From: an archaeon
GTDB taxonomy: Archaea > Micrarchaeota > Micrarchaeia > Norongarragalinales > UBA97
Direction of reading: 5' to 3'
NCBI GenBank assembly: GCA_020057405.1
Contig: JAGVFW010000003.1
Location: 1 to 64,000, forward strand
Length of the DNA stretch: 64,000 nucleotides
Shown here one piece after another: positions 3,453-23,313 of the stretch. The translations under genes were made by a program, and so were the position numbers. A model generated the notes under the pieces. That model did not search any database. It was not told the DNA's origin and saw only the letters and a program-made list of their open reading frames with translations. Positions within the stretch are counted from its first letter, which is position 1. Each line of letters starts with the position of its first letter.

Positions 3453-3725
3453 ATGTTTACGGTGAGTTCGCATATGTCCAATACTACGACAATGACGATA
3501 AACGTGAGGAAGGATGTCCTTGACGAGTTTAGGGACGCTGCGGGGAAAGTGTACGGGGGAGGCAAGGGCCACCTCGGCAAGGCGGTGGCGGAAGCGCTTT
3601 CTTCTTGGGCCTCATTACACAAGCGCGGGAGTGCGGAGGAGAGGGCGCTAAAATTGCTTGAAAAGGGATACCACTTGGGTTACGACGCAAAGAAGTTGAG
3701 GCGAGAGGACATCTATGACCGTTGA
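3453..3725 (+). CDS. ribbon-helix-helix-like antitoxin (VapB-type)
   Basis: Small basic protein, 'TMTINVRKDVLDEFRD' RHH-like start; overlaps the downstream PIN ORF. Confidence 0.7.
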   Translation: MFTVSSHMSNTTTMTINVRKDVLDEFRDAAGKVYGGGKGHLGKAVAEALSSWASLHKRGSAEERALKLLEKGYHLGYDAKKLRREDIYDR

Positions 3726-4149
3726 AAAGCCGGTTTTCATCGACACTAACGTGCTAGTGTACGCCTCCGACTTGGACAGTGCGGACAAGCGAGAGAAAGC
3801 CAAGGAAATCGTTGAGAACGTGTTCGCAGGCAGGCTAGTGGCCTCTGTTTCAAACCAAGTGCTGTCCGAATTTTTTTACGCCGTAACTCGAAAGACCGCA
3901 AGCAGGATACCGCCCCTAGAGGCAAGCGAAATCGTGCAAGCCATTGTCGGCTCGCCTAAATGGATGAAATTCAATTATACTGCTGAAACGGCGAGGAAGG
4001 CGGCTTTCGCAAGCGCCAAAACGGGCAGCAGTTACTGGGACGAGCTGATAGTCCAGACTATGCTAGAGAATGGCGTGGCCACCATCTATACCGAAAACAC
4101 CAAGGATTTTGAAGGCAAAGGCATCCAATTAGTCAACCCGTTCAAGTAG
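3715..4149 (+). CDS. vapC: PIN-domain toxin (VapC-like ribonuclease)
   Basis: FIDTNVLVYASD start, conserved acidic residues (SEFFY, YWDELIV, TENTKDF). Confidence 0.88.
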   Translation: MTVEKPVFIDTNVLVYASDLDSADKREKAKEIVENVFAGRLVASVSNQVLSEFFYAVTRKTASRIPPLEASEIVQAIVGSPKWMKFNYTAETARKAAFASAKTGSSYWDELIVQTMLENGVATIYTENTKDFEGKGIQLVNPFK

Positions 4150-21988: not shown

Positions 21989-22789
21989 TTAAATCAATTC
22001 CTTCAGCAAAGCAAGGTCGCAGTAGTTTGGGGATGCAAACGCGTCTATTCCTCTTTGTTCTGCGAGTTCTTGAATGAATTGCGCGTATGGTTCTTGGAGC
22101 CGGTAGGCTTTCCAGTTCAGGCATAAAACAGGCTTTCTGCCAGCCTTTGCCCCGCCGGTAACTGCGTCCGCTATTTTCTTCGTCCACTCGACGGTTTTTC
22201 CGGCAGAACCCAGAATGAATCCATCGCAGTCTTCTAAACCCATCAATTCCGCCGCCCGTTCTGGCGTCATGCTCCCGCCGTATATGACTCGCGTTTTCCC
22301 AGCCGTGTCTTCGTCAAACCGCTCGGCTATGGCTTTTCGCAGCAGGGAACAAAAAAACTGGACTTGGGCGGCTTGCGGAGGCGTCACTCCGGCTTTCCCA
22401 CTTCCCCTAGTGCCCCACGCGGGCTCATAACCGACGACTATTTTTTGGAAGTCTTGCCGCGATACGCCGGCTATTTCTTCAAGGAATTTCCGGCAAACAA
22501 GGCCTTGGATTTTTTGTTTTTCCTCGGCTGAAAGGTCTTGCCAGTCTTTCCCCAGTTCGGCCCAGCTCTCCCCGACCAGCAATATGTTGTCAAATAATTC
22601 GTTCGCTATTGCGCTTTTGAGTTTTTTATTTACCGTATCCGAATCATCACCAACTTCGGAATGGCCGATAATAATTCCAGTAGCCCCGGCTTTTTTTACC
22701 TCAAAACAACTCGTGCCGCCGGTTCTGGCAAAAGAATCTCTCCCGTCGCCATCAAAAATAGAAATGTTCTGCGCAATTAGCTTAACCAT
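21989..22789 (-). CDS. tpiA: triosephosphate isomerase, circularly permuted (begins at beta3; beta1-alpha2 at C terminus)
   Basis: Order of motifs: AQN - IGHSE - VGES - YEPAWGTRGSGK - VIYGGSMTPERAAEL - DGFILGSAG - then LNWKAY...FASPNYCDLALLKEL. Confidence 0.92.
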   Translation of the reverse strand: MVKLIAQNISIFDGDGRDSFARTGGTSCFEVKKAGATGIIIGHSEVGDDSDTVNKKLKSAIANELFDNILLVGESWAELGKDWQDLSAEEKQKIQGLVCRKFLEEIAGVSRQDFQKIVVGYEPAWGTRGSGKAGVTPPQAAQVQFFCSLLRKAIAERFDEDTAGKTRVIYGGSMTPERAAELMGLEDCDGFILGSAGKTVEWTKKIADAVTGGAKAGRKPVLCLNWKAYRLQEPYAQFIQELAEQRGIDAFASPNYCDLALLKELI

Positions 22790-22836
22790 GACAAAGTTTG
22801 CCCCGGGCAAACTAAAAAAACTTCCTATGGGTGCAG

Positions 22837-23313
22837 TCAGTTCTTTTTCTTGCGGCCTTGCTTTGCGGGCGTGGGCGCTGTTGCCGGCGCGTGGGCGTGA
22901 AGCGCAATCTTGCCGTCGAGGGCGGACTGGAGTGCGTCGCGCAGGCCCTTTAGCGAGGGCCGGTCCATGTGGGCGCGGAAGATGAGGTCGCCGGCCTTGT
23001 TGATGTCGAACTGGATGAATTCGGAATGGAAGTCCCGCGTCTCGTTGTCAAATGACTTGGGGTAGGCCACAGGCGAGAAGGTGAATGCGACTTCCTCGCG
23101 GCCGGGGCTTTTAACGACGCTGCCCATTTGGGGCGGGGTGATGGAAAGCAGATGCAGGCCGAAGGAGACCATGATGTTAAAAGCGATGATTGCGACTAGG
23201 AAGATTGCTAGGGTGTAGTCGCCCGAGTATAGGGTGAGGGCAACTGCAAGGATGCCGGTCCAGACTAGGGCGTTGGCGCCAATGTGCTTTAGGTATCCTG
23301 CATTAAGTTCCAT
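22837..23313 (-). CDS. hypothetical protein with two TM segments
   Basis: ALVWTGILAVALTLYSGDYTLAIFLVAIIAFNIMVSFG; abuts DUF373 gene. Confidence 0.65.
   Translation of the reverse strand: MELNAGYLKHIGANALVWTGILAVALTLYSGDYTLAIFLVAIIAFNIMVSFGLHLLSITPPQMGSVVKSPGREEVAFTFSPVAYPKSFDNETRDFHSEFIQFDINKAGDLIFRAHMDRPSLKGLRDALQSALDGKIALHAHAPATAPTPAKQGRKKKN

Follow-up and report, generated by a model that had tools for sequence, protein, structure and literature searches.

By its sequence, the gene at positions 21989-22789 (minus strand) of the window, the 64,000-nucleotide stretch of DNA analysed here, is a permuted member of the triosephosphate isomerase (TIM) family, PF00121. Comparison with relatives confirmed it as a natural circular permutant that belongs to an inherited family and is not a singleton. 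It is probable that the gene encodes a working TIM, that its permutation arose by duplication, fusion and trimming, and that it has spread horizontally. What is new here is an inherited natural TIM, in archaea and one bacterium, with its termini at a place unlike that in described natural TIMs.

TIM, the archetype of the barrel fold, ranks with the best-conserved and most intensively studied of enzymes. Its catalysis is considered close to perfect, and the enzyme depends on its dimer in most organisms. A family of natural permutants is an evolutionary experiment on which features of TIM hang on chain order. It lets one ask how the fold nucleates with beta1-beta2 last and whether the loop contacts of the dimer survive, and it bears on the passage of a protein through a tandem-fusion stage.

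Gene layout and order of the barrel elements

Translation bore out the coordinates, strand and motif order of the original prediction. The minus-strand open reading frame runs from an ATG at 22789 to a stop codon at 21989-21991, and the features discussed below are as follows.

21989..22789, minus strand: permuted TIM gene, 266 aa, ATG start, TAA stop
22154..22789, minus strand: block 1, beta3 to alpha8, now N-terminal (residues 1-212; PF00121 profile 55-243)
22136..22153, minus strand: linker GAKAGR (residues 213-218), bridging the former C terminus (alpha8) and the former N terminus (beta1)
21992..22135, minus strand: block 2, beta1-alpha1-beta2-alpha2, now C-terminal (residues 219-266; matched by Pfam in restored order)
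22109..22117, minus strand: N225-W-K227 of beta1, with the substrate-binding Asn and the catalytic Lys (all four stand-alone members keep N and K)
22661..22663, minus strand: H43, catalytic His (His95 of yeast TIM) in GHSE, invariant in relatives
22424..22426, minus strand: E122, catalytic base (Glu165 of yeast TIM) in YEPAW, invariant in relatives
22796..22812, no strand: perfect palindrome GTTTGCCC-C-GGGCAAAC (whole: GTTTGCCCCGGGCAAAC), 6 nt upstream of the ATG

The first half of the protein carries the motifs LIAQN (residues 4-8), GHSE (42-45), GES (73-75) and YEPAW (121-125), and the second half YGGS (170-173), DGFILGSAG (189-197), the linker, LNWKAY (224-229) and, at the end, ASPNYCDLALLKELI. 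Read as strands, beta3 to beta6 are KLIAQN, IIGHSE, ILLVGES and VVGYEPAW; from beta7 to beta2 follow VIYGGS, GFILGSA, the short linker, VLCLNWKAY (beta1), alpha1, DAFASPNY (beta2) and alpha2, where the frame stops. Block 1 corresponds to the C-terminal four fifths of a conventional TIM and block 2 to its N-terminal fifth, while the linker between them differs in length and sequence among the permuted relatives.

A TTG 21 nt upstream of the ATG is an alternative start that would add seven residues; the ATG at 22789 is the likely true start, because all four relatives start with M a few residues before the A-Q motif of beta3. The stop of the upstream gene ends at 22837, which leaves 47 nt before the ATG, so that no conventional N-terminal block precedes the gene; that this gap is too short for a beta1-alpha2 block had been correctly anticipated. 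Within it lies the palindrome, which has 0 mismatches (0.51 matches expected by chance on average, allowing up to 3 mismatches), is single-copy within the window and is possibly an operator or processing site. The permuted gene is nearly bracketed by a 16-nt inverted repeat (94%), whose arms fall within the end of the permuted gene itself (22006-22021) and within that of the upstream gene (22851-22866); the repeat may have arisen by chance. An archaeal DUF373 protein is encoded among the neighbouring genes.

Profile and structural evidence for the permutation

The PF00121 profile (length 245; curated cut-off 20.1 bits) matched the window protein in its native order with 101.9 bits, residues 2-208 falling on profile positions 55-243. 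The native chain therefore gives no collinear full-length match, and a full match appears only after rotation. With residues 217-266 moved to the front of the chain (restored order), a single match of 115.3 bits covered profile positions 2-243. Six control chains, five with a shuffled and one with a reversed C-terminal block, scored 95.6-97.2 bits with matches starting at about profile position 50, so restoring the order gains about 19 bits over the controls. The three stand-alone relatives described below behaved alike: restored versus shuffled chains scored 122.0 versus 95.8, 99.0 versus 80.6 and 89.1 versus 71.8 bits, a gain of 17-26 bits, and in restored order they cover the whole profile. 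The last 57 residues of the window protein alone had no match in Pfam or NCBIfam. Order-dependent profile searches report permuted TIMs as truncated and can therefore hide such proteins.

Comparison with proteins of known structure gave the same picture. Searched against the PDB with phmmer, the restored chain aligned end to end with 7rmn and 1b9b, and the E-value for 7rmn was 2.3e-24 in restored versus 4.5e-22 in native order. MAFFT placed the N of N-W-K from 45 conventional beta1-alpha2 fragments on N225 when the permuted rows were accompanied by few conventional beta3-beta8 rows; with many such rows the fragments were misplaced, in one alignment onto the beta4 block. Bacterial TpiA (PF00121; PDB 7rmn, 1b9b, 7rpn) shares the catalytic residues, the barrel and the motifs of every strand with the window protein, mostly at about 25-37% identity over the beta3-beta8 block; the window protein differs in an order rotated by two beta-alpha units and in altered loops 3, 4, 6 and 8.

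AlphaFold2 was given an alignment that combined the window protein with one stand-alone relative, two permuted domains from Omnitrophota and conventional TIM fragments, the last entered as separate beta3-alpha8 and beta1-alpha2 pieces. On the strength of this alignment, in which conventional fragments are laid on the C-terminal block, the protein is predicted to close into a (beta/alpha)8 barrel (pLDDT 92.7, pTM 0.91) with its eight strands at residues 2-6, 38-41, 69-72, 118-121, 168-170, 190-193, 221-225 and 249-253; a single-sequence run gave a poor model (pLDDT 45). The original prediction had named closure of a modelled barrel as a check, and the model agrees with it. A fold search of the model against the PDB returned TIMs as all 50 of the matches listed, over 198-224 alignment columns and with TM-scores of 0.59-0.66 normalised by query, and none of these 50 was a full-length match to the permuted chain. 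Some 200-220 aligned columns are as expected, because a sequential aligner cannot place the last 50 or so residues of a permuted chain. The restored-order profile match, the modelled barrel and the three relatives with the same cut together uphold the central claim of a circular permutation between alpha2 and beta3.

Permuted barrels are known from other settings. Engineered permuted PRAI and scrambled yeast TIM exist. The designed barrel sTIM11 is likewise a permuted one, made de novo (PMC13105402). In these engineered permutants (sTIM11, PRAI, yeast TIM) new termini are tolerated, but they are man-made, whereas the window protein is natural. A known natural permutation of an alpha/beta barrel separates transaldolase from the class I aldolases, according to the part of PMC7092467 that cites Jia 1996. 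Transaldolase is, however, of another enzyme family, and its permutation divides two enzyme classes, whereas that of the window protein lies inside one enzyme family. No natural TIM permutant was found in the literature searched, and subscription journals or preprints may hold one.

Relatives, distribution and origin

Four stand-alone permuted TIM genes, including that of the window, share the alpha2/beta3 cut. The original prediction had proposed a search for homologues in the permuted order, and three such relatives were found: L059, from a Candidatus Aenigmatarchaeota genome (274 aa from its ATG, 45% identity), and, through whole-genome searches, one gene each from G740 (phylum Aenigmatarchaeota; 267 aa, 36% identity) and G1229 (Patescibacteria; 264 aa, 36% identity). 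The four make up a single clade (100/100, long stem) in a tree of 67 TIMs.

The window genome (G000) is a draft of a small, DPANN-like genome (1.22 Mb, 17 contigs, 90.6% complete, 0.27% contamination), and draft assemblies of this kind could in principle join pieces of a normal tpiA by faulty assembly or binning, or hold a decaying gene fragment. The four genes, however, come from unrelated genomes, have diverged to 35-48% identity, have varied linkers, are in frame and start and stop at equivalent places, and no other bacterial-type tpiA pieces were found in the window genome. Because the same junction recurs in four unrelated genomes at this divergence, misassembly, which had been foreseen as a possible refutation, is excluded in practice, and an artefact or a decaying fragment is extremely improbable.

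A DNA pattern of the permuted order (YGG...DG...GxA...linker...NWK) occurred in 91 stretches of the genome contig collection. Filtering for a common open frame left one stand-alone gene (L059) and domains from Omnitrophota (L041, L049, L060, L087, L101); most of the 91 were rejected as ordinary tpiA genes with a chance TTCCARTT downstream, outside the same open frame. The 302 other genomes of the window's phylum yielded no permuted relative, and the bacterial-type TIMs that could be read in them are of conventional order. Searches of 160 other Aenigmatarchaeota genomes, 347 other relatives of G740, 384 other sampled Patescibacteria and 94 other genomes of the order of G1229 brought up no further member. 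Six-peptide scans with the window protein as sole query gave no match in the genome or viral collections, nor did viral scans with the permuted alignments; as to carriage by phages or plasmids, only partial, ordinary TIM matches and no PHROG match were obtained.

Since the distribution is this patchy, the stand-alone permuted TIM has likely moved between lineages horizontally. The original prediction had proposed a TIM of bacterial type acquired by transfer, and this is supported by the 302 genomes of the phylum without the gene and by the host's own TIM, a short gene of archaeal type that lies apart on a different contig (L001, G000:C4:46038-46682). That gene has the conventional order, is of the same superfamily and presumably catalyses the same reaction; it differs in being shorter and is no close relative of the permuted TIM. 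The bacterial-type TIMs of the window's phylum (L004-L019) were rejected as parents, being of conventional order and forming their own group in the tree. In most of them the flexible loop is altered, reading YEPVWAISS in place of YEPVWAIGTG.

Permuted TIM domains also occur within large proteins of Omnitrophota (L041, L049, L060, L087, L101, L133, L134), encoded by open reading frames of 1035 to 13008 aa; their partners include enolase (L087), phosphoglycerate kinase (PGK; L049) and a tandem TIM (L134). An ordinary tpiA was also present in all four Omnitrophota genomes examined for it. These are natural TIM domains cut before beta3 like the window protein, but they are embedded in fusions (enolase, PGK-like) or tandems, whereas the window protein is a 266-aa stand-alone gene, and they are not a supported sister of the stand-alone family. 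The tandem protein of G522 (L134) has two matches in permuted order, and across these runs one conventional match to the full profile. It is a state from which trimming one way or the other yields a normal or a permuted gene, and the proposed tandem intermediate therefore exists in nature.

We infer the route and the direction of spread to be as follows: a bacterial-type tpiA would have undergone tandem duplication and in-frame fusion, both outer parts would then have been trimmed, and the product would have passed horizontally among DPANN archaea and Patescibacteria. An alternative, concerning the origin only, is that the stand-alone genes are domains excised from fusions of the Omnitrophota type, with a single permutation event. 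The two groups are cut alike, before beta3, and in AU tests a single permuted clade could not be rejected, at p 0.56 for restored full chains and p 0.42 for the beta3-beta8 part. Against this, three Omnitrophota permuted domains form a clade of their own (100/100) among the ordinary bacterial TIMs, away from the stand-alone clade in free trees, and the marks of the stand-alone group (short loop 4, ARTG, GSG...PP, GSA) are missing from the Omnitrophota domains. We regard excision as unlikely, though by no means negligible, and it is compatible with the functional account of an active TIM. A bolder proposal, to which we give somewhat less than even chances, is that a stand-alone, horizontally spread permuted TIM serves as the sole TIM of some DPANN archaea and that the alpha2/beta3 permutation arose at least two independent times, once in this family and once in the Omnitrophota fusions that still include the tandem intermediate.

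Side features were seen around two of the relatives. In G702, the 5' end of the permuted TIM gene recurs upstream of the gene as a 109-nt copy of 94% identity (L177:2812-2920 and 3690-3798); between the copy and the gene sits a MazE-like/PIN-domain gene pair, which looks like the outcome of an insertion of the pair accompanied by a duplication. In G740, the permuted gene has an IMP dehydrogenase gene on one side and, 22 nt downstream, a HisA-family gene on the other (L173:261-3055).

Catalytic residues and probable function

All catalytic residues are kept in the window protein, and the positions given for H43, E122, N225 and K227 in the original prediction were correct; together with W125, the protein thus has the catalytic Asn, Lys, His and Glu and the loop-6 Trp. 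All four stand-alone members have Asn225, Lys227, His43, Ser44, Glu45, Glu122 and Trp125 unchanged. In TIM the old N and C termini adjoin on the non-catalytic face of the barrel, as is established for the fold. The permuted chain begins at beta3 and ends at alpha2, with the short linker joining the old termini, and the new termini, in the alpha2-beta3 loop, would lie on that same non-catalytic face, beside the junction of the old ones. Because these new ends would be on the opposite face, the active site (Asn225, Lys227, His43, Glu122, loops 6-8) would build as in an ordinary TIM and would convert dihydroxyacetone phosphate to glyceraldehyde 3-phosphate and back via an enediol, as is usual. 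The best-supported reading is that the permuted gene encodes an active triosephosphate isomerase, an activity suggested by these conserved residues.

The barrel could instead have been kept while its function changed, towards another small phosphorylated sugar or aldehyde as substrate or towards a regulatory or scaffolding pseudo-enzyme. Loops 3, 4, 6 and 8 depart from those of ordinary TIMs in all four stand-alone proteins, the window genome and G1229 also carry a short archaeal-type TIM, and the gene of G740 adjoins HisA-like and IMP dehydrogenase genes in a genome where no PGK match was found. Yet all four members, whose identity falls to about 35%, retain the Asn, Lys, His, Glu and loop-6 Trp, and G702 has PGK with no other TIM found there. 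A change of function is therefore improbable, and an active isomerase remains our preferred reading.

The original prediction had stated that a second complete tpiA beside an inactive permutant would tell against it. Half of this was found, in that a second, conventional archaeal TIM is present in the window genome, and because of this ordinary enzyme the permuted gene is not needed to explain glycolysis there. As for the other half, the permuted gene is the only PF00121 match in each of two other genomes, G702 and G740, both Aenigmatarchaeota drafts. PGK is present in G000, G702 and G1229, and since none was found in G740 the permuted TIM may have a different role there. The short archaeal-type TIM of G1229 (L202:1204-1848, minus strand) has Ser in place of the conserved beta1 Asn (LSLKTY).

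The altered loops are common to the stand-alone group. Loop 4 is shortened and lacks the usual Arg-Arg; the window protein reads GHSEV versus the usual GHSERR, with both Arg and about four loop 4 residues lost. Its loop 3 has TGG where TGE is usual, so the bacterial-type GHSERR/TGE interface motifs are absent from it. Other marks of the group are ARTG in loop 3, a longer loop 6 ending in GSG and followed by a PP insertion, and GSA in place of GGA in loop 8 (GSAG versus GGAS in the window protein). In the window protein E122 opens the flexible loop 6, PAWGTRGSGK, which is one residue longer than usual. In two relatives, R replaces the Ser of YGGS.
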